A stretch of DNA of 42,492 nt from Gelidibacter sp. Lineage in GTDB: Bacteria > Bacteroidota > Bacteroidia > Flavobacteriales > Flavobacteriaceae. The DNA lies in assembly GCA_010906935.1 (NCBI GenBank), contig JAAFHC010000003.1, positions 1 through 42,492 on the forward strand, written 5' to 3'. Every line of letters starts with the position of its first letter. The first letter of the stretch is position 1. A program made the translations under genes and the position numbers. The notes under the pieces are model-generated. The model saw only the letters and a list, made by a program, of their open reading frames with translations, did not search any database and was not told the origin of the DNA. Positions 18,249-28,079 of this stretch are shown in pieces.

Positions 18249-20732
18249 ATGGCGAAAAATTTAGTAATCGTAGAGTCACCTGCAAAAGCAAAAACCATTG
18301 AAAAATTTTTAGGAAAAGATTTTCAGGTTGAATCCAGTTTTGGACATATAGCAGATTTACCATCCAAAGAAATAGGAATTGATGTTGAAGGAAATTTTAG
18401 CCCTAAATATGTTGTTCCTGCCGATAAGAAGGCGTTGGTAAAAAGATTGAAAGATTTGGCTAAAAATGCTGATATGGTTTGGCTGGCATCGGATGAGGAC
18501 AGAGAAGGGGAAGCAATTGCCTGGCATTTATACGAACAATTAAAATTAAAGGAAGCCAATACAAAACGTATTGTTTTTCACGAAATTACCAAAAAAGCCA
18601 TATTAAAAGCAGTAGAAAATCCAAGAAGCATCGATTACAATTTGGTAAATGCACAACAAGCAAGACGTGTGTTAGACAGGTTGGTTGGTTATGAACTGTC
18701 ACCTGTTCTTTGGCGGAAAATTAAAGGAGGTTTATCGGCAGGGAGAGTTCAATCTGTTGCCGTTAGGTTAATAGTTGACAGAGAACGCGAAATAAACAGT
18801 TTTGATCCTCAAGCTTCCTATAAAGTAATGGCCCAGTTTATTACTGAGGAAGATAAAAAATTCAAGGCTTCGCTACCTAAAAATTTTGATACCAAAGAAG
18901 ATGCCGCTTCATTTTTGAAATCCTGCATAAATGCGAAATTTAAAGTGGATGATTTGCAGACCAAACCGGCAACAAAATCTCCAGCAGCGCCATTCACAAC
19001 CTCAACATTGCAACAAGAAGCTTCCAGAAAATTGTATTTTCCGGTAGCCAAAACGATGATTATTGCACAACGTTTGTATGAAGCCGGATTGATTACTTAT
19101 ATGAGAACGGACAGTCTTAATTTATCGGAAGATGCAAAAATTGAGGCACAAGAAGAAATTATTTCCTCTTTTGGGAAGGAATACAGCAAACCAAGAAGTT
19201 TCCACACCAAAGATAAAGGCGCACAAGAAGCTCACGAAGCCATTAGGCCAACAAGTATGAGCCTTCAGTCGGTTTCTGTTGATTATGATCAGGACAGGTT
19301 GTACGATTTAATTTGGAAAAGAACCATTGCTTCACAAATGAGTGACGCGCAATTGGAACGAACCAACGTAAGAATTACGAATACCAATAATAAGGAAGTT
19401 TTTACGGCAAATGGCGAAGTAATTAAGTTTGAAGGATTTCTAAAAGTATATTTAGAAGGCACTGATAATGAAGATGAAGAACAAGAAGGCATGTTGCCAA
19501 AATTATCGAAAGGTGAAGTATTAGTCAATAAATCCATCACTGCAACCGAGCGTTTTACTAGAGCACCTTATCGTTATTCAGAAGCCGCACTTGTGAAAAG
19601 ATTAGAAGAATTGGGAATTGGGCGTCCGTCAACTTATGCGCCAACAATTTCAACCATCCAAAAAAGAGAATATGTTGAAAAAGGAACAATTGAAGGCGAA
19701 GACAGAAACTATACCGAGCTGAAATTAAAAGCAGGAGAAATAGTTACCAAAGCATTAACCGAAAAAGTAGGATCAGACAAAGGGAAATTAGTGCCTACAG
19801 ATATTGGAAATATTGTAAATGACTTTTTGGTGGAGAATTTCACCTATATTTTAGATTTTGGTTTCACGGCAAAAGTGGAATCGGAATTTGATGATATTGC
19901 TGAAGGAAAAGAAGATTGGATTAAAATGATTAAAGATTTTTACAAATCATTTCATCCTATGGTTGAAGATGTTGCCGAAAATGCAGACAGGGCGAAAGGT
20001 GAACGTTTATTGGGTGTTGACCCAGAAAGCGGCAAAAATGTGTATGCGCGTTTGGGAAGATTTGGCGTTATGGTTCAAATTGGAGAAGCAACAGATGAAG
20101 AAAAACCGAAATTTGCGAGTTTACAAGGCGATCAAACATTAACTTCAATCACTTTTGAAGAAGCCATGGATTTGTTTAAACTTCCAAGAACAATTGGTGG
20201 TTATAAAGGAAAAGAAGTGGTGGTTGCAGTTGGGCGTTTTGGACCGTATCTTAAATATGACGAGATGTTTGTGGCAATTCCAAAAGATGAAAACCCAATG
20301 TCGGTTGACATTAATCGCGCCATTGAATTGATTATAGAAAAGCAAAAAGCTGATGCACCAATTTGTGAATTTGAAAATATTCCAGTGCAAAAAGGTGTAG
20401 GTCGATTTGGTCCATTTTTAAAATGGAACAGCATTTACATCAACGTAAATAAAAAATACGATTTCGATAATTTAACCGAAAAAGATGTTGTTGAATTGAT
20501 CGAAGAAAAGAAACGAAAAGATATTGAGAAAGTCATTCATCACTGGCCTGAAGAAGGAATTTCTGTTGAAAAAGCACGTTGGGGAAGATCAAATATTCTA
20601 AAGGGAAAAACAAAGATAGAATTGTCAAAAACAGTAGATCCAAGTAAATTAACATTGGCAGATGTTAAGGAAATAATTGAGAAAAACGCACCAAAAAAGA
20701 AAACAACAAAAGGAAAAACGGCAAAAAAATAA
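18249..20732 (+). CDS. topA: DNA topoisomerase I (type IA)
   Basis: Relaxes negative supercoils by single-strand passage. 827 residues. TOPRIM domain (about 1-120) with VESPAKAKTIEKFLG (catalytic Glu) and the acidic triad SDEDREGEA; type IA core with AGRVQSVAVRLIVDRE and the catalytic tyrosine in LITYMRTDSLN (about residue 282). After about residue 580 there are several topoisomerase C-terminal repeats (GRFGVMVQIG, GRFGPYLKYDE, GRFGPFLKWNS), in place of the Cys4 zinc fingers of E. coli TopA, and a Lys-rich end (KKKTTKGKTAKK) likely to touch DNA. 49 bases separate it from the arginase-fold gene with no strong terminator, so readthrough is possible. Confidence 0.96.
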   Translation: MAKNLVIVESPAKAKTIEKFLGKDFQVESSFGHIADLPSKEIGIDVEGNFSPKYVVPADKKALVKRLKDLAKNADMVWLASDEDREGEAIAWHLYEQLKLKEANTKRIVFHEITKKAILKAVENPRSIDYNLVNAQQARRVLDRLVGYELSPVLWRKIKGGLSAGRVQSVAVRLIVDREREINSFDPQASYKVMAQFITEEDKKFKASLPKNFDTKEDAASFLKSCINAKFKVDDLQTKPATKSPAAPFTTSTLQQEASRKLYFPVAKTMIIAQRLYEAGLITYMRTDSLNLSEDAKIEAQEEIISSFGKEYSKPRSFHTKDKGAQEAHEAIRPTSMSLQSVSVDYDQDRLYDLIWKRTIASQMSDAQLERTNVRITNTNNKEVFTANGEVIKFEGFLKVYLEGTDNEDEEQEGMLPKLSKGEVLVNKSITATERFTRAPYRYSEAALVKRLEELGIGRPSTYAPTISTIQKREYVEKGTIEGEDRNYTELKLKAGEIVTKALTEKVGSDKGKLVPTDIGNIVNDFLVENFTYILDFGFTAKVESEFDDIAEGKEDWIKMIKDFYKSFHPMVEDVAENADRAKGERLLGVDPESGKNVYARLGRFGVMVQIGEATDEEKPKFASLQGDQTLTSITFEEAMDLFKLPRTIGGYKGKEVVVAVGRFGPYLKYDEMFVAIPKDENPMSVDINRAIELIIEKQKADAPICEFENIPVQKGVGRFGPFLKWNSIYINVNKKYDFDNLTEKDVVELIEEKKRKDIEKVIHHWPEEGISVEKARWGRSNILKGKTKIELSKTVDPSKLTLADVKEIIEKNAPKKKTTKGKTAKK

Positions 20733-20781: not shown

Positions 20782-21942
20782 ATGAATTTCGATTATCTTA
20801 AACCTATTGATGACGCGTTATTGGAACAGGCAAAATTGCAATCCGATCAATCATTTGGCAAATGTATCGAAATCTATTCTGCAAAAAGTGGTTTCCCGGA
20901 TTTATCAAATAAAAAAATAGCAATAATTGGCGTTGAAGAAGGCCGATCTGCTATTGGAAATTGCGAAACTGGTTCCAATTTAAATGAGGTCAGAAAAGAA
21001 TTATACAAACTTTTTCCTGGGAATTGGCCAATCAGCGTTGCCGATATCGGAAATATTCCACAGGGAAATACCATTGAAGACACTTATTTTGCACTGGGAG
21101 AATTATTGACCTATCTTATAAAAAATAAAATCATTCCCATAATTATTGGCGGAGGACAGGATTTAACCTACTCAAATTACAGGGCTTATGACAAGTTGGA
21201 GCAAACCGTGAATATGGTTTCGGTTGATAACAGATTCGATTTAGGAGCCATTGAAGACGATTTAACCTCACAATCCTATTTAAGCAAAATTGTAATGAAC
21301 CCGCCAAATAATTTATTTAATTATAGTAATATTGGGTATCAAACATACTTAAATTCACAAAATGAAATAGATTTATTGGATGGTTTGTTTTTTGAAGCCT
21401 ACAGACTGGGGGAAGTTTCAAGCGCAATTCAATTAGTCGAACCCGTTTTACGTGATGCGGATATTGTGAGCATAGATTTATCTGCAATTAAAAATGCAGA
21501 TGCTCCAGCAAACAACAATGCAACACCCAATGGTTTTACAGGTGCAGAAATTTGCGCCATTTCAAGATATGCAGGCATAAGTGATAAAGTGACTTCTTTT
21601 GGCATTTATGAATATAATTCAACATTAGATGTTAAAAACCAAACCGCACAGTTAATTTCACAAATGATATGGTATTTTATTGAAGGTGTTAATTATAGGG
21701 CAAATGATTATCCTTTCGGATTAAAAGACAACTACCAAAAATATATAGTGCCCATTGAAAATGAAGTGTTGAATTTTTATAAAAGCAATAAATCAGGTCG
21801 TTGGTGGATGGAAATTAATTTAAATGAAAGTAATAAATTTAAGAGACATGCGTTAATACCTTGTGCGTATCAAGATTATATTAGCGCAACCAATCAGGAA
21901 ATCCCAGATAGGTGGCTAAAAACGCTAAAAAAGTTGGTGTAA
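20782..21942 (+). CDS. Arginase/formimidoylglutamase-fold protein with altered metal-binding residues
   Basis: 386 residues, ureohydrolase (arginase) fold. The canonical blocks can be lined up but are changed: GGDHS reads G-G-G-Q126-D, DAHxD reads D149-N-R151-F-D153, and the SxDxDxxDP block reads S-I-D232-L-S234-A-I-K-N. Thus three expected manganese ligands (two His, one Asp) appear replaced by Gln, Arg and Ser, while D149, D153, D232 and a Glu in FGIYEYN remain. A two-manganese hydrolase site seems unlikely, so the common 'formimidoylglutamase' label should not be taken as activity. No signal peptide, so probably cytoplasmic. It sits 116 bases before gldK, which has its own promoter. From memory, related genes precede gldK in other flavobacteria. 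Role unknown; a pseudo-enzyme linked to gliding/T9SS is a hypothesis. Confidence 0.8.
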   Translation: MNFDYLKPIDDALLEQAKLQSDQSFGKCIEIYSAKSGFPDLSNKKIAIIGVEEGRSAIGNCETGSNLNEVRKELYKLFPGNWPISVADIGNIPQGNTIEDTYFALGELLTYLIKNKIIPIIIGGGQDLTYSNYRAYDKLEQTVNMVSVDNRFDLGAIEDDLTSQSYLSKIVMNPPNNLFNYSNIGYQTYLNSQNEIDLLDGLFFEAYRLGEVSSAIQLVEPVLRDADIVSIDLSAIKNADAPANNNATPNGFTGAEICAISRYAGISDKVTSFGIYEYNSTLDVKNQTAQLISQMIWYFIEGVNYRANDYPFGLKDNYQKYIVPIENEVLNFYKSNKSGRWWMEINLNESNKFKRHALIPCAYQDYISATNQEIPDRWLKTLKKLV

Positions 21943-22003: not shown

Positions 22004-22034
22004 TTGTTTTTTAAGATAATTAGTAATACGTTTG
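22004..22034 (+). promoter_or_regulatory. gldK-gldN operon promoter (TTG-N20-TACGTTTG)
   Basis: TTG (22004-22006), 20 bases, TACGTTTG (22027-22034), with the ATG of gldK 24 bases further on. Both boxes fit the flavobacterial consensus. Confidence 0.65.
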
Positions 22035-22058: not shown

Positions 22059-23420
22059 ATGAAGAAAATATCGTTGTATATTTTACTAGTCTTAGTTATA
22101 TATAGTTGTGGATCTAGCGATCAAGGAGAATTAGTTGGCGTGAGATCAAGCGGTAAATGGCATTCTCAAAAACCAGTAGGTATGACTTTAATACCTGGGG
22201 GATCGTTTACCATGGGGAAACAAAGCGAAGATGTTGCGGGCGCTTTAAATTCACCAACCAGAACAGTAACTGTGCGTCCTTATTATATGGACGAAACTGA
22301 AATCACCAATAGTGAGTATAAAGAATTCGTGTTTTGGGTTCGGGATTCCATCGTAAGAACTGAACTGGCGTTATTTTCTGAATTAATGTCTTCGGAAGGA
22401 GATATTGTTTTAGAAGATTATCAGTTTTTAGACATCGACTCAACAGATATGTCTCCATATCAAAAATACATGATGAAAACTTATGGCAGCCTTGGGGATA
22501 TCAATTCTCCAACTCAAGGTAAAATGTTGAATTGGGACGAAAAAATTGTTTGGAATGTAAATGAATTTCCAAGCGAAGAATATGCCGAAGTGATGATTGA
22601 TTCAATTTTAATGCCTATTGAAGATAGTTTTGAAGGCAGAAGAATGATAAATCCAGCAAAATTAAAGTTTAAATTTTCTTGGCTAGATCAAGAAGATGCT
22701 GCAAGAAAACAAGGTAATAGAAGAGATTTTATAAAAACAGAAGTCGTATCTGTTTATCCAGACACCACAGTTTGGATTAAAGATTATAATTACTCTTACA
22801 ATGATCCAATGCACCAGGACTATTTTTACCATCAAGCCTATAATGATTACCCTGTTGTAGGAGTGTCATGGATACAGGCAAAAGCCTTTTGTCAATGGAG
22901 AACAAAAAAGAAAAATGATTATTTAAGCACTAAGAAAAACCCAACCCAAATTCCACAATTTAGATTAGCGACTGAAGCTGAGTGGGAATATGCTTCTCGC
23001 GGCGGTCTTGAAAATGCTACTTATCCTTGGGGAGGGCCATATACCACAAATGACAGAGGCTGTTTTTTAGCCAACTTTAAACCAGCCAGAGGTAATTATG
23101 CTGTTGATGGCGCCTTATATACTATGGAAGCAAAATCGTATTTTCCAAATGATTTTGGATTGTACAATATGGCGGGTAATGTTTCTGAATGGACAAATAC
23201 AGCTTACAGTGAAGCATCCTATTATATCGGTTCCACTATGAATCCGAATGTGGAAATTGATAAAAATAAAAGAAAAGTAATCCGTGGAGGCTCATGGAAA
23301 GATGTAGCATACTTTTTAGAGGTAAGCACTAGAGATTATGAGTACGCAGATTCAGCCAGAAGTTATATCGGTTTTAGAACTGTTCAGGATTTTCTTGGCA
23401 CCAATATAAATGGAAAATAA
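22059..23420 (+). CDS. gldK: GldK, type IX secretion ring lipoprotein
   Basis: Outer-membrane lipoprotein (PorK homologue) that forms the periplasmic ring of the type IX secretion system with GldN. 453 residues: lipobox IYSC (lipidated C17), then a formylglycine-generating-enzyme/sulfatase-modifying fold (about 40-445) with GMTLIPGGSFTMG, VVGVSWIQAKAFCQW, RLATEAEWEYASRGG, NMAGNVSEWT and VIRGGSWKD. The catalytic cysteine pair of true FGE enzymes is missing near the end (ARSYIGFRTV), as in GldK/PorK generally, so a structural role is expected. First of four co-directional gld genes. Confidence 0.96.
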   Translation: MKKISLYILLVLVIYSCGSSDQGELVGVRSSGKWHSQKPVGMTLIPGGSFTMGKQSEDVAGALNSPTRTVTVRPYYMDETEITNSEYKEFVFWVRDSIVRTELALFSELMSSEGDIVLEDYQFLDIDSTDMSPYQKYMMKTYGSLGDINSPTQGKMLNWDEKIVWNVNEFPSEEYAEVMIDSILMPIEDSFEGRRMINPAKLKFKFSWLDQEDAARKQGNRRDFIKTEVVSVYPDTTVWIKDYNYSYNDPMHQDYFYHQAYNDYPVVGVSWIQAKAFCQWRTKKKNDYLSTKKNPTQIPQFRLATEAEWEYASRGGLENATYPWGGPYTTNDRGCFLANFKPARGNYAVDGALYTMEAKSYFPNDFGLYNMAGNVSEWTNTAYSEASYYIGSTMNPNVEIDKNKRKVIRGGSWKDVAYFLEVSTRDYEYADSARSYIGFRTVQDFLGTNINGK

Positions 23421-23462: not shown

Positions 23463-24098
23463 ATGGCACAATCAAAAAACAGAAAAAAATTATTTAATTA
23501 CGCTTATGGTATTGGAGCATCTATCGTAATTTTAGGTGCATTGTTTAAAATACAGCACTGGACCGGTGGTAGTGAAATGCTAACCGTAGGAATGATTGTG
23601 GAAGCAATTGTGTTTTTTATCTCTGCTTTTGATTCTGTTGAAGAAGATTTAGACTGGACATTAATTTATCCGGAATTGGCAGGCGGTGACAAACGCGAGA
23701 AAGATGCCGGACAAGCCAAGGAGGTTCAAGGCTTACTTTCACAAAAGTTGGATGATATGCTTAGAGATGCAAAACTAGATTCAGGTTTAATGCAAAGTTT
23801 AAGTGAAAGTATTCAAAATTTTAAAGGAGCCGCTGAAAATATTGCTCCGGCAGTTAATTCTATTGCGGCAACAAATAAATATAGCGAGCAAATGTTTTTG
23901 GCCGCAGCACAAATGGAATCTTTAAATAGCTTATATAAAGTACAAGTGGAAAGTACCAGCAAACAAGCCGAAATTAACTTACAGGTCACTGAAAATGCAA
24001 CCAGATTAAAAGAACAAATGGAATCATTGGCAACAAACCTGTCTTCACTTAATGGTGTTTACGGTGGTATGTTATCAGCAATGTCAATTAAAAACTAA
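23463..24098 (+). CDS. gldL: GldL, type IX secretion motor inner-membrane protein
   Basis: Inner-membrane protein that with GldM forms the proton-driven rotary motor of T9SS and gliding. 211 residues: two transmembrane helices (about 14-31 and 39-57) joined by a short periplasmic loop, then a long cytoplasmic domain rich in Gln, Ser and Asn. TM1 carries K29 and H32 and TM2 carries E47, which line up with the Lys, His and Glu proposed to handle protons in Flavobacterium GldL. The conserved LDWTLIYPEL follows TM2. Gaps to gldK and gldM are 42 and 44 bases, same operon. Confidence 0.96.
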   Translation: MAQSKNRKKLFNYAYGIGASIVILGALFKIQHWTGGSEMLTVGMIVEAIVFFISAFDSVEEDLDWTLIYPELAGGDKREKDAGQAKEVQGLLSQKLDDMLRDAKLDSGLMQSLSESIQNFKGAAENIAPAVNSIAATNKYSEQMFLAAAQMESLNSLYKVQVESTSKQAEINLQVTENATRLKEQMESLATNLSSLNGVYGGMLSAMSIKN

Positions 24099-24142: not shown

Positions 24143-25672
24143 ATGGCTTCAGGTAAATTATCACCAAGGCAGAAAATGATTAACATCATGTACTTAGTTT
24201 TCATCTCTATGATTGCGATGCAAATGTCTAAGGAAGTGCTTTCTGCGTTTGGATTTATGAATGAAAAACTTACAGAGAATAACACGACAGCCTCTGTAAA
24301 AAATATGGCAACTCTTGAAAATTTGGCAACCAAGGCAGAAGAGCAGCCTGAAAAATACAGCGAACTTCATGCGAAAGCGATAGAGGTGAACAAATTATCT
24401 TTAAAATTCAATGATTATTTAGAAGAAAAAAAGCAGTTTTTTCTTAAAGATCAAAAAGATCAGACCAACTATGAAGCAATGGACCAAACCAGCACTGTGG
24501 ATGAACACTTTTTTAAAGGCGATAAATTCACAACGGAAGGTCAAGAATTTTTGGACCAAATAAATGGCTACAGAGACGCAATAATTAAGCTTATAGGAGA
24601 AAAAAGTCCGTTAGCAACTACCATAAAAAAAAGGTTTGACACGTCTCCTCAAGATGCGAAAGGCGGCAAACAGCTTTGGTTAAAAAACAGGTACGAAGGA
24701 TTTCCTTTAATTTCTACCATTACCAATTTAACTTCTATGCAAACCGATATCAGAACAACGCAATCGGAAATTTTTGGAACACTATTAGGTGGACAATTAG
24801 AAAGTGATGTTTCCATGTCTAACTACAAAACAATTTTAATTCCAGAAAAGTCTGCTTTTTTCCAAGGAGAAAACTTTAAAGGTAAAATTGTATTGGGACG
24901 CTATGATGCCTCTTTAGTGCCTTCAGAAGTTGTTGTTAACGGTCAGAAAATAACCACTATTCAAGACGGAGGTGCCATTTTAGATTTTCCTGCTGGTGCA
25001 GTTGGGGAACGTGAAATAAAAGGAAAATTTGTTTTTATTGAAAACGGAAAACCTGTTGAAATTGAAATTAGCAGTAGTTACGCAGTTATTCCAAAGCCAA
25101 ATAGTGCTGTTATTTCAGCAGATAAAATGAACGTTGTTTATAGAGGTGTGGCCAATCCAATGACAATTTCAATTCCTGGAATACCAGATAATTTGGTGAA
25201 TGCATCAGGTGCAGGCTTATCTAGAGCAAGCGGTTCAGGTAAATATATTATGACACCGGGCGTAGGTAGAGAAGTTAAAATTAACGTTACAGGAAAACTT
25301 CCAAACGGACAATCAGTTAGTTCATCTCAAGATTTTAGGATTAAGGATATTCCTTCACCTAGTGGTTCTATCAGAAAGCAATCGGGTTATGTAAAAATGC
25401 CTGCAGCAAGTTTAGAGAATTCTACCGTTGGTGCAGAATTGCCAGATTTTGATTTTGACTTGTCGTTAAATACCTCAGGATTTACAATCAAAGTACCTGG
25501 ACAATCTGCCGTAGTAGTGAGTGGTAATAAAATGAATGATGCCGCAAGAAAAGCAATTGCGAAAGCAAAAAGAGGTGATGTTATTACAATATTCGACATA
25601 AAATCATCGTTAGGTGGTAATACTTCCTATAAAATTAAAGATGCTTCGGCAGTGAGTATAGAAATACAATAA
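24143..25672 (+). CDS. gldM: GldM, type IX secretion motor periplasmic shaft
   Basis: Partner of GldL: one N-terminal transmembrane helix (about 10-33, INIMYLVFISMIAMQMSKEVL) and a long periplasmic shaft of four domains reaching the GldK/GldN ring. 509 residues, family-typical. The N-terminal SPRQKMINIMYLV stretch is diagnostic. The region from about 230 to the C-terminus is beta-rich (ILIPEKSAFFQGENFKGKI onwards), ending in a domain expected to contact GldK/GldN. Confidence 0.96.
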   Translation: MASGKLSPRQKMINIMYLVFISMIAMQMSKEVLSAFGFMNEKLTENNTTASVKNMATLENLATKAEEQPEKYSELHAKAIEVNKLSLKFNDYLEEKKQFFLKDQKDQTNYEAMDQTSTVDEHFFKGDKFTTEGQEFLDQINGYRDAIIKLIGEKSPLATTIKKRFDTSPQDAKGGKQLWLKNRYEGFPLISTITNLTSMQTDIRTTQSEIFGTLLGGQLESDVSMSNYKTILIPEKSAFFQGENFKGKIVLGRYDASLVPSEVVVNGQKITTIQDGGAILDFPAGAVGEREIKGKFVFIENGKPVEIEISSSYAVIPKPNSAVISADKMNVVYRGVANPMTISIPGIPDNLVNASGAGLSRASGSGKYIMTPGVGREVKINVTGKLPNGQSVSSSQDFRIKDIPSPSGSIRKQSGYVKMPAASLENSTVGAELPDFDFDLSLNTSGFTIKVPGQSAVVVSGNKMNDAARKAIAKAKRGDVITIFDIKSSLGGNTSYKIKDASAVSIEIQ

Positions 25673-25684
25673 AATAAATATTAA

Positions 25685-26587
25685 ATGATGAATAAAAAAA
25701 ATATTGGAATTTTTATTTTGGCATTTGTGCTGTATAATACCATGTATGCACAGTCAAATCTATTGAATGCCAAGAAACCTTCTGATATTGGTAAAAAAAC
25801 CGCAGCGCAAAAAGCCGTAGATAATGACAAGCCATTGGCTTATGGATATGTTGATGACAGGGATATTCTATGGTCTAAAGTTGTTTGGGAATATCTTGAT
25901 TTAAATGAGCGAATTAATATGCCGTTTTATTACCCTGTAGACACAATGAATGTATCTTTGGATAGGCGATCACTGTTCGATACACTGTTAAAAGGCATTA
26001 AAAACGGTGATATTACGGAGATTTATGACGATTCCTATTTTACGGCTAAAATGACAAAAGTTGAAATTAACAACAAGCTTTTTAGAATTGACACTACTGA
26101 TGCTGGTTTTGATGAAATGAATGCCGGAAATCAAAATATTGATGAATACGTTGATAAAATTAATTTAACCTCCCAAGATATTGAAGGTTTTAAAATTAAA
26201 GGACTTTGGTATTTTGACAAACGTCAGGGTGAATTAAAATATCGCATGATTGCATTGGCACCGATTGCACCAGATGTGCAAACGATGGGACGAGAAGATA
26301 TTGATATTTCTGAACAATTGGCATTGTTTTGGGTTTATTTTCCCGATGCGCGTGGAGTGCTGCATAATGCAAAAGTTTTCAATCAAAAAAATTCAGCGTA
26401 TCCAATTTCTTTTGATCATTTGTTAAATGCACGAAGATTTAGTTCCATTATTTATAAAGAGGAAAATATTTATGGTGATCGAGATGTGGATCAATACGTG
26501 AAAGGAAATGCCTTGTTCCAAGTATTGGAGTCTGATAAAATTAAAGATGACATCAGAAATAAAGAACTTAATATGTGGAATTATTAA
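25685..26587 (+). CDS. gldN: GldN, type IX secretion ring protein
   Basis: Periplasmic PorN/GldN subunit that forms the outer-membrane-associated ring with GldK. 300 residues: signal peptide (about 1-24, ending TMYAQS), then the GldN domain (about 55-300), with DDRDILWSKVVWEYLDLNERIN, RRSLFDTLLKGI and a C-terminal DQYVKGNALFQVLES. The start could be either of two adjacent ATGs (25685 or 25688). Starts 12 bases after gldM and is followed by the operon terminator at 26609. Confidence 0.96.
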   Translation: MMNKKNIGIFILAFVLYNTMYAQSNLLNAKKPSDIGKKTAAQKAVDNDKPLAYGYVDDRDILWSKVVWEYLDLNERINMPFYYPVDTMNVSLDRRSLFDTLLKGIKNGDITEIYDDSYFTAKMTKVEINNKLFRIDTTDAGFDEMNAGNQNIDEYVDKINLTSQDIEGFKIKGLWYFDKRQGELKYRMIALAPIAPDVQTMGREDIDISEQLALFWVYFPDARGVLHNAKVFNQKNSAYPISFDHLLNARRFSSIIYKEENIYGDRDVDQYVKGNALFQVLESDKIKDDIRNKELNMWNY

Positions 26588-26659: not shown

Positions 26660-27700
26660 ATGCAAATGGATTATATCGTAGTTGGTCTTGGATTGGCGGG
26701 ATTGGCCTTTACCAAAGAATTGGAAAAAAATAAAAAATCATACTTGGTTTTTGAGGATCATTCCCAAAATTCTTCCTTGGTAGCTGGCGGTGTATACAAT
26801 CCGGTAGTGTTAAAGCGCTTCACACCAGTTTGGAATGCAACCGAGCAATTGGATATTGCTTTGCCATTTTATGAGGATTTGGAAATTCAATTCAACAGAA
26901 AATACGACTATCCAATAGATATTTACAGAATATTCAAATCGGTTGAAGAACAAAATAATTGGTTCGCCGCCTGTGATAACCCGGTATTATCTAACTTTAT
27001 GTCCACCAAATTAATTAAGGAAAAACATGAATGCGTTTTGGCGGATTTCGGATATGGGAAATTGCTAAATACAGGAAGGATAGATACAAAAACTTTGCTG
27101 GAAGATTACCGGAATTATTTATTGAAAAAGAAATTAGTCAGAAATGAAAGTTTTCAATATTCCGAATTAAAAATTACAGAAAACGGTGTTGAATATAAAG
27201 GAGTGATTGCTTCAAAAATTGTTTTTTGTGAAGGGTTTGGACTTAAGAACAATCCATATTTTAAGGAGTTGCCCATGCAAGAAGCAAAAGGTGAGTTAAT
27301 AACCATTCACGCGCCAAATTTAAATATAGATTTTATGATAAAATCTGCTGCGTTTGTGCTTCCTTTAGGAAATAATTTGTACAAAATCGGGGCCACATTT
27401 AATTGGAAAGACAAAACCCAGCTTCCAACGGAAGAAGGCAAAAACGAACTTACAGCCAAATTAGAAACATTTATTACGGTTCCTTATGAAATAGTGGAAC
27501 ATGAATCTGGGATAAGGCCAACGGTTAAAGACAGAAGACCTTTGGTAGGAAAACATCCAAAGCATCAAAATTTAGCCGTATTAAATGGATTGGGAACTCG
27601 CGGTGTGATGATTGCGCCATCAATTGCAAAAGCACTTTATGATCATTTAGAAAATGGAATTGCGCTGGATGAAGAAATTTCTATTGCTCGCTTTCTTTAG
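26660..27700 (+). CDS. FAD-dependent oxidoreductase of the DAO family
   Basis: 346 residues, cytoplasmic, no signal peptide. N-terminal dinucleotide fold VVGLGLAGLAF (GxGxxG, about residues 7-17) with an acidic end to the second strand (FEDHSQ), and a C-terminal FAD-closing motif (GIRPTVKDRRPLVG ... VLNGLGTRGVMIAPSIAKAL). This layout fits the D-amino-acid-oxidase / glycine-oxidase-like family. Substrate not readable; related proteins are usually annotated only as FAD-dependent oxidoreductases. ATG at 26660 or 26666 can serve as start. Its last 20 bases overlap the end of the convergent DUF983 gene. Confidence 0.85.
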   Translation: MQMDYIVVGLGLAGLAFTKELEKNKKSYLVFEDHSQNSSLVAGGVYNPVVLKRFTPVWNATEQLDIALPFYEDLEIQFNRKYDYPIDIYRIFKSVEEQNNWFAACDNPVLSNFMSTKLIKEKHECVLADFGYGKLLNTGRIDTKTLLEDYRNYLLKKKLVRNESFQYSELKITENGVEYKGVIASKIVFCEGFGLKNNPYFKELPMQEAKGELITIHAPNLNIDFMIKSAAFVLPLGNNLYKIGATFNWKDKTQLPTEEGKNELTAKLETFITVPYEIVEHESGIRPTVKDRRPLVGKHPKHQNLAVLNGLGTRGVMIAPSIAKALYDHLENGIALDEEISIARFL

Positions 27701-28079
27701 ATTTAATTACCTTTGGATCATATTTTACAAAAAGATTGATCCATCCTATTCTTGAGAACCTAATGGTAAGTGGCGCAGATAAAATCAATGCAATAACAAT
27801 AGGCATAAAACTTTCTACCAAACTAAAGTCGAAAAACAGCGTGACTATTGCGAAGGTTGCAATTGAAATTCCAACCGTGAGCGCATAATTTATATACATA
27901 GCGCCATAATAAAAGGAAGGTTCTATCATGTATTTTAAGCCGCATTTATCACAATGTTCATGCATTTGAAAAGCTTTATTCAATTTAAACATATTCTTCT
28001 CTTTCATGAAATCGCCTTCGTGACATCTTGGGCATTTATTGAATAAAACGCTATAAAGCTTGCTTCCTTTTTTAAACAT
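27681..28079 (-). CDS. DUF983 family membrane protein
   Basis: 132 residues. N-terminal zinc-ribbon-like region with two CxxC knuckles (CPRC at 16-19 and CDKCG near 43), then two transmembrane helices (about 62-82 and 88-105), and a basic C-terminus (KYDPKVIKSKE). This is the DUF983 pattern; function unknown. The gene ends inside the last codons of the FAD oxidoreductase gene (20-base tail-to-tail overlap), with no terminator visible for either. It is divergent from the ABC-F gene across 130 bases. Confidence 0.85.
   Translation of the reverse strand: MFKKGSKLYSVLFNKCPRCHEGDFMKEKNMFKLNKAFQMHEHCDKCGLKYMIEPSFYYGAMYINYALTVGISIATFAIVTLFFDFSLVESFMPIVIALILSAPLTIRFSRIGWINLFVKYDPKVIKSKESEQ

Follow-up and report, generated by a model that had tools for sequence, protein, structure and literature searches.

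The window, by which we mean the whole 42,492-nucleotide stretch of Gelidibacter sp. DNA analysed here (contig JAAFHC010000003.1), carries a single open frame of 386 codons at positions 20782 to 21942, between topA and the gldKLMN genes. The features of this region, all on the forward strand, are listed below.

18249..20732, + strand: topA (NCBIfam), ending 49 bp before the gene
20782..21942, + strand: pseudo-formimidoylglutamase ORF, 386 aa, one open frame from ATG to TAA
20914..21693, + strand: arginase-fold core, approximately residues 45–304
21697..21939, + strand: C-terminal domain, residues 306–386, beta4-alpha2
22004..22034, + strand: Bacteroidota-type promoter motif TTG-N20-TANNTTTG, 24 bp before gldK
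22059..23420, + strand: gldK (TIGR03525, 586 bits)
23463..24098, + strand: gldL (TIGR03513)
24143..25672, + strand: gldM (TIGR03517)
25685..26587, + strand: gldN (TIGR03523, 268 bits)

The first-pass annotation had placed the gene directly before gldKLMN, and the starts of these four genes (22059, 23463, 24143 and 25685) agree with this. Beyond gldN, positions 26660–28079 hold an FAD oxidoreductase-like ORF on the forward strand and a small ORF of 132 aa on the reverse strand, both of which recur behind gldN in other loci of the window's family (f1).

In a Pfam scan the protein matched the Arginase family PF00491 at 61 bits (cut-off 22), and beyond the Arginase family no model scored above its own cut-off. 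PF00491 was also matched by 43 of the 44 selected sequences of the family set A1 (E 0.001). The predicted structure is an arginase alpha/beta fold: hhalign of the family profile against six HutG-like proteins gave a probability of 100 at 23% identity, and the top fold match of the window protein was formiminoglutamase. Behind this core lies a C-terminal domain (residues 306–386) that matches no Pfam model and was not found in any of 11 control ureohydrolases; its residues F332, W341, W342, C361, Y366, P375 and W378 are present in 97–100% of 192 relatives. The maximum 19-residue hydropathy is 1.33; the protein has no hydrophobic signal and is probably cytosolic. Its closest named relatives, 92–94% identical, are proteins of MAGs from Lutibacter and other Bacteroidota.

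The metal-ligand positions were read from an alignment with the controls, 11 intact-type proteins (L001 and L077–L086) that were excluded from all counts of relatives. In the window protein the six ligand columns hold Q126, D149, R151, D153, D232 and S234, so that Gln, Arg and Ser replace His, His and Asp exactly as the first-pass annotation had read them, and E277 is retained. The controls have His (9) or Asn (2) at 126, Asp (10) or Asn (1) at 153, and without exception Asp at 149, His at 151 and Asp at 232 and 234. In the usual arginase numbering the ligands are H101, D124, H126, D128, D232 and D234, which places 151 and 234 as ligands of the B site only. The window protein thus carries Gln for the A-site His at 126 and has lost both B-site-only ligands.

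The same columns were counted in 215 matching loci other than the controls, which gave 199 distinct sequences after duplicates were merged. Asp is present at positions 149 and 232 in 190 sequences each, and position 153 is Asp in 177 and Asn in 13. Of the Gln/Arg/Ser changes that the first-pass annotation had proposed to follow among relatives, the Gln is widely shared (169 of 199, with His in 19 and Asn in 6); the other two are not fixed, position 151 being Lys in 82, Arg in 69 and His in 7, and position 234 Ser in 67, Gly in 52, Asn in 39, Thr in 13 and Asp in 6. The full set HDHDDD occurred in none of the 199, nor were H151 and D234 ever found together, and every relative read has lost at least one B-site metal ligand, so the replacements in the window protein are no accident. 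From these counts a binuclear cluster is very unlikely, which upholds the earlier suggestion that the manganese centre was unlikely to form while the fold, as predicted, is kept.

The decisive losses are those at the B-site positions 151 and 234. By their titles, solved structures of T. cruzi formiminoglutamase include one 'with Mn2+2' and one of an 'N114H variant'; because of these structures, and of the Asn at 126 in 2 of 11 controls, Q126 alone is not disqualifying. At the A-site positions, 17 of the 199 relatives have H,D,D,D and 158 have Q,D,D,D. A single metal ion may therefore still be held in most of them, and residual chemistry with one metal would be possible.

The usual name was then set against these data. 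The best NCBIfam family is hutG, which all 44/44 A1 members match, and the fold match to formiminoglutamase points the same way; the window protein, however, reaches only 85.3 bits against hutG TIGR01227, far below the cut-off of 229.15. In a tree of 63 rows (42 family members and 21 homologues; quick method) all 42 members fell on one side of a single branch with an SH-aLRT of 100. Their clade lies among HutG-like proteins, apart from the branches of the L001-type and other intact homologues; L076 forms a long row of unsure placement. The family thus has neither the six Mn ligands of TIGR01227 proteins nor a grouping with intact HutG-like proteins, and is a pseudo-ureohydrolase in the sense of a homologous fold whose metal ligands are lost. 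Furthermore, genomes G030 and G256 carry the gene alongside an intact HDHDDD homologue in a gene cluster read as a putative hut cluster. That the product is a working formimidoylglutamase, as usually annotated, is barely credible given its ligands, score, separate clade and co-residence with an intact homologue, and the first-pass doubt about the name was well placed: the gene is probably mis-named as an enzyme. Compared with HutG (3m1r, 1xfk, 4mxr/4myn), the product lacks B-site ligands and usually H126, has the additional C-terminal domain and occupies a different genomic place.

The gene has diverged under constraint. The alignment of 44 sequences has 23 invariant columns, and 44 columns are conserved at 95% or more among 192 sequences, a count that omits the divergent L050, L056, L092, L093, L060, L064 and L076, all of which are included in the ligand counts. 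Residues R55, F204, R208, R224, C258 and W297 are present in 98–100% of the 192, where another residue is usual in the controls, and G210, E220 and P221, variable among controls, are present in 99–100%. Conservation at these nine positions indicates a separate family under its own constraint. The dN/dS of the gene has a median of 0.097 (range 0.023–0.354) over the 38 usable pairs of 276, the other 238 being saturated; the corresponding values are 0.060 for topA, 0.039 for gldK, 0.111 for gldN and 0.239 for gldL. The gene is under purifying selection.

The protein might also be an active enzyme with a new chemistry, using a mononuclear A-site metal or no metal at all. The retention of D149 and D232 in 190 of 199 relatives, of D153 in 177 and of His or Gln at 126 in 188 is consistent with this, as is E277, which is Glu in 11/11 controls and in 132 of 192 relatives. 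E277 is, however, replaced by Asn in 44 and Gly in 13 of the 192, and with Asn or Gly in 57/192 a bound ligand need not be the same across lineages. The very divergent f5 members L050, L056, L092 and L093 argue further against it: their ligand columns read NSISND or NSVSND, the acidic A-site ligands being lost too, yet they retain the C-terminal domain, which suggests that the conserved function does not need the A site. We regard a new enzymatic activity as unlikely.

Two arginase-fold proteins offer comparisons. A chain of TbARG of T. brucei has DARPD where DAHxD is usual, which puts Arg, as read by motif, at the same ligand position as in the gene product; that chain may be an engineered mutant. 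TbARG comes from another host and another branch of the superfamily; reportedly (4rhi-4rhq; Hai et al. 2015) it has the arginase fold and evolved with no binuclear cluster, and it is said to have lost more metal ligands than the window protein. The second is MetCb/MfmB, the inactive subunit of a Ni-dependent metformin hydrolase, which the excerpted text of PMC11271267 presents as a metal-free arginase-family protein acting by binding; the subunit B chain was among our profile matches (8ryi_C, E 5.3e-6).

The MetCaCb precedent (PMC11271267, as excerpted) raises the possibility that the gene product, itself free of metal, pairs as a subunit with an intact ureohydrolase, and the window's own genome does encode one further PF00491 protein, L001, with 204 bits and intact ligands. 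MetCb, however, needs its active cognate MetCa, and in G384, one of 20 genomes searched, the only PF00491 match is the gene itself, so a strict pairing of the MetCb type is unlikely and an obligate partnership is disfavoured. The homologues in the tree are moreover spread over several separate branches. A partner-subunit role is accordingly judged very unlikely.

To place the gene in its genomic setting, the genes at each locus were identified with purpose-built profile models. GldK was found within 2.5 kb downstream of the gene in 138 of 169 assessed loci, a conserved neighbourhood: 23/27 in the order sample, 80/80 among the nearest named relatives and 33/39 in a second class sample, figures that come from non-random samples in which 20 of the 40 second-sample loci had been picked as already known to be linked. 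In other orders of the first sample linkage was seen in 2/23 loci and was absent from 21/23. Among the GldM rows listed, at least 48 of 88 loci were linked, and 20 loci had been picked as apparently unlinked or unassessed, of which 13 proved linked among the 19 that could be assessed. Counted by hand from their codes, about 36 families have linked loci. Unlinked loci were seen in f5, f17, f18, f19, f22, f23, f84, f90, f91, f101 and f109; L064 and L201, where GldK- and PorP-like genes lie close by on the opposite strand, were scored as unlinked. Other neighbours identified at unlinked loci by reading the sequence include a PBP4-like gene (six f18 loci) and an NqrF-like gene (three f22 loci).

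TopA lies directly upstream in 24/27 order loci, 34/40 second-sample loci and 78/79 of the nearest named, and in 1/23 loci of other orders; miaB belongs to the block in 22/23 linked order loci and in 22/40 second-sample loci. Linkage can fail on one side only, with TopA but no GldK in L093, L203 and L208 and GldK but no TopA in L061, L187 and L194. All four f5 loci read are unlinked from gldK, although GldM is present in each of the four genomes, and TopA adjoins the gene in L093 and lies within 4 kb of it in L050 and L056. Overall, topA-gene-(porP)-gldKLMN forms an old, conserved block that can come apart on each side of the gene.

Between the gene and gldK, a PorP/SprF gene is present in 12/23 linked loci of the order sample, 2/2 of the other orders and 33/33 of the second sample, and in 0/80 of the nearest named; it was TIGR03519 in all four scanned. 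Its position in linked loci suggests that the ancestral order was probably topA-gene-porP-gldKLMN, and porP was probably lost at the locus in f1, the window's family, and in f3. P. gingivalis has a PorP-PorKLMN locus, and the parallel drawn with it in the first-pass annotation is sustained, since a PorP-family gene precedes gldK/porK in 47/58 linked loci outside the named set. Unlike the P. gingivalis locus, the block has a gene for a cytosolic protein added before porP, and in f1 and f3 porP is absent from it. For porP the window segment 20782–22059 was compared with L047, L052, L062 and L183.

The distribution of the gene was surveyed in samples of the order, the class (taken to be Bacteroidia from the named relatives) and the phylum. 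It was present in 284 of 301 class-sample genomes (94%; genomes at least 95% complete, E≤1e-20), 279 of them at E≤1e-50; the remaining five matches were from f19 (four) and G704. Matches at E≤1e-5 were obtained in 227/296 order genomes, a search that may include HutG paralogues (G013, 2.9e-13). In the phylum sample 182 of 392 genomes matched, and the six loci read beyond the class (L077–L082) were of the intact type. An orthologous family is found in most sampled Bacteroidia genomes.

GldM was searched with TIGR03517 in the same samples. In the class sample, gene and GldM occurred together in 282 genomes, the gene alone in 2, GldM alone in 12 and neither in 5 (Fisher p 6e-6, uncorrected for kinship). 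In the order sample the corresponding numbers were 223, 4, 8 and 61 of 296; each of the four gene-only genomes is less than 90% complete, and among the listed 17 of the 61 genomes with neither, 12 are f16 genomes of 0.3–0.6 Mb. The 12 class genomes with GldM only belong to f24, f25, f26, f86, f121, f127 and f130. They include three large f24 genomes of 6.4–7.2 Mb (G465, G515 and G603) that have a GldM match and no match to the gene, and these are natural tests of whether a T9SS can work without it.

Of the two gene-only class genomes, G678 has the gene at a contig edge. The other, G595 (99% complete), has the gene with ligands HDKDDS and matched neither GldM nor GldN, the GldN search being run without a positive-control genome and with a model under which GldN of the window scores 268 bits. 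In the congener G297 gene and GldM are both present, so the loss of GldM and GldN in G595 looks recent. The gene is therefore neither present wherever GldM is (12/301 exceptions) nor absent wherever it is missing (2/301). Co-occurrence was rejected as proof of a T9SS function, as linked genes would vanish or be missed jointly. The class-sample counts and G595 together suggest that the gene and the T9SS share a class-wide history, yet neither seems to need the other.

The spacing of the genes was also considered. The gap between topA and the gene has a median of 40 bp, and that from the gene to porP or gldK a median near 130 bp. The Bacteroidota-type promoter motif, TTG-N17-23-TANNTTTG, occurred in 22/167 downstream gaps against 2.4 expected from mononucleotide shuffling, and in 1/166 upstream stretches of equal length, mostly topA coding sequence, against 0.28 in shuffles; the strict motif is found at 13% of loci only. 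With the gene lying close behind topA, topA is probably its co-transcribed partner.

These observations bear on whether the product serves the T9SS/gliding motor as a dedicated factor in the cytosol, one that would, for example, bind cytoplasmic GldL or couple a metabolite signal to GldLM. The old order gene-(porP)-gldKLMN, with its high linkage in the order, class and named samples, and the presence of GldM in 282/284 gene-positive class genomes speak for such a role. It is weakened because topA, and often miaB, share the same old block, which breaks on either side, and we know of no T9SS role for topA or miaB. It is further weakened because the gene lies close behind topA while the promoter motif is enriched before porP/gldK. 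The genomes with GldM and no gene, G595, the unlinked f5 loci and the rarity of linkage in other orders also count against it. Of the gliding or T9SS link proposed in the first-pass annotation, then, the old linkage stands, and the functional step from linkage to T9SS role does not follow from it. A dedicated T9SS/gliding role is possible, and we consider it doubtful.

We instead favour, with a probability of about 0.5, the reading that the gene product is a cytosolic binding pseudoenzyme, a pseudo-formimidoylglutamase that stands beside gldKLMN by an old chromosomal arrangement. Since the binuclear cluster would be unable to form, the protein would not be a ureohydrolase. The Lys or Arg at 151 (151/199) probably takes the place and the charge of the lost Mn-B near D149 and D232. 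The former catalytic pocket, of the formiminoglutamate type and with a fixed positive side chain at the Mn-B position, would then bind a small ligand and leave it unhydrolysed, or would bind it with no more than a single A-site metal ion. Contact with a partner may be made by the aromatic C-terminal domain together with the conserved R208/E220/R224 region. The gene would be transcribed with topA, its place before gldKLMN reflecting an old arrangement and being no proof of a T9SS task.

A more specific proposal combines the pocket with the motor: an enzyme formerly of histidine degradation would now be a ligand-sensing cytosolic subunit of the T9SS/gliding motor, in which the defunct metal site is locked by Lys or Arg at 151 while the WW/C/Y/W C-terminal domain docks onto the cytoplasmic side of GldL. 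Such a subunit would have been inherited with porP-gldKLMN since early in the class and later lost in some T9SS-bearing lineages. We consider this rather unlikely; if true, secretion and gliding would be coupled to metabolite state.

Whichever reading holds, the family is a large natural set of de-catalysed arginase-fold proteins in which ligand loss is graded, the A site having His or Gln, the B site mostly Lys/Arg, and the loss being nearly complete in f5. Should the gene act on the T9SS, a cytosolic input to gliding becomes testable; should it not, it cautions against assigning a T9SS function to genes because they adjoin gldK, and against including this one among the genes of histidine degradation. 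Searches limited to open-licence papers found no paper on the gene, and it is not mentioned in the excerpted text of the T9SS papers PMC12635249 and PMC8986121 or of PMC9169529, an unrelated list of biochemical tests.

Two minor observations were made among the loci read. L236 and L246 (genomes G002 and G226) encode a second divergent arginase-like protein, in ORFs of 360 and 383 codons, with GGGHNNxY and DAHSD motifs and a very long tree branch. L174, on a contig labelled as a Bifidobacterium breve MAG, has a topA-gene-gldK locus whose protein is 54% identical to that of the window, and is probably a mislabelled or mixed bin.
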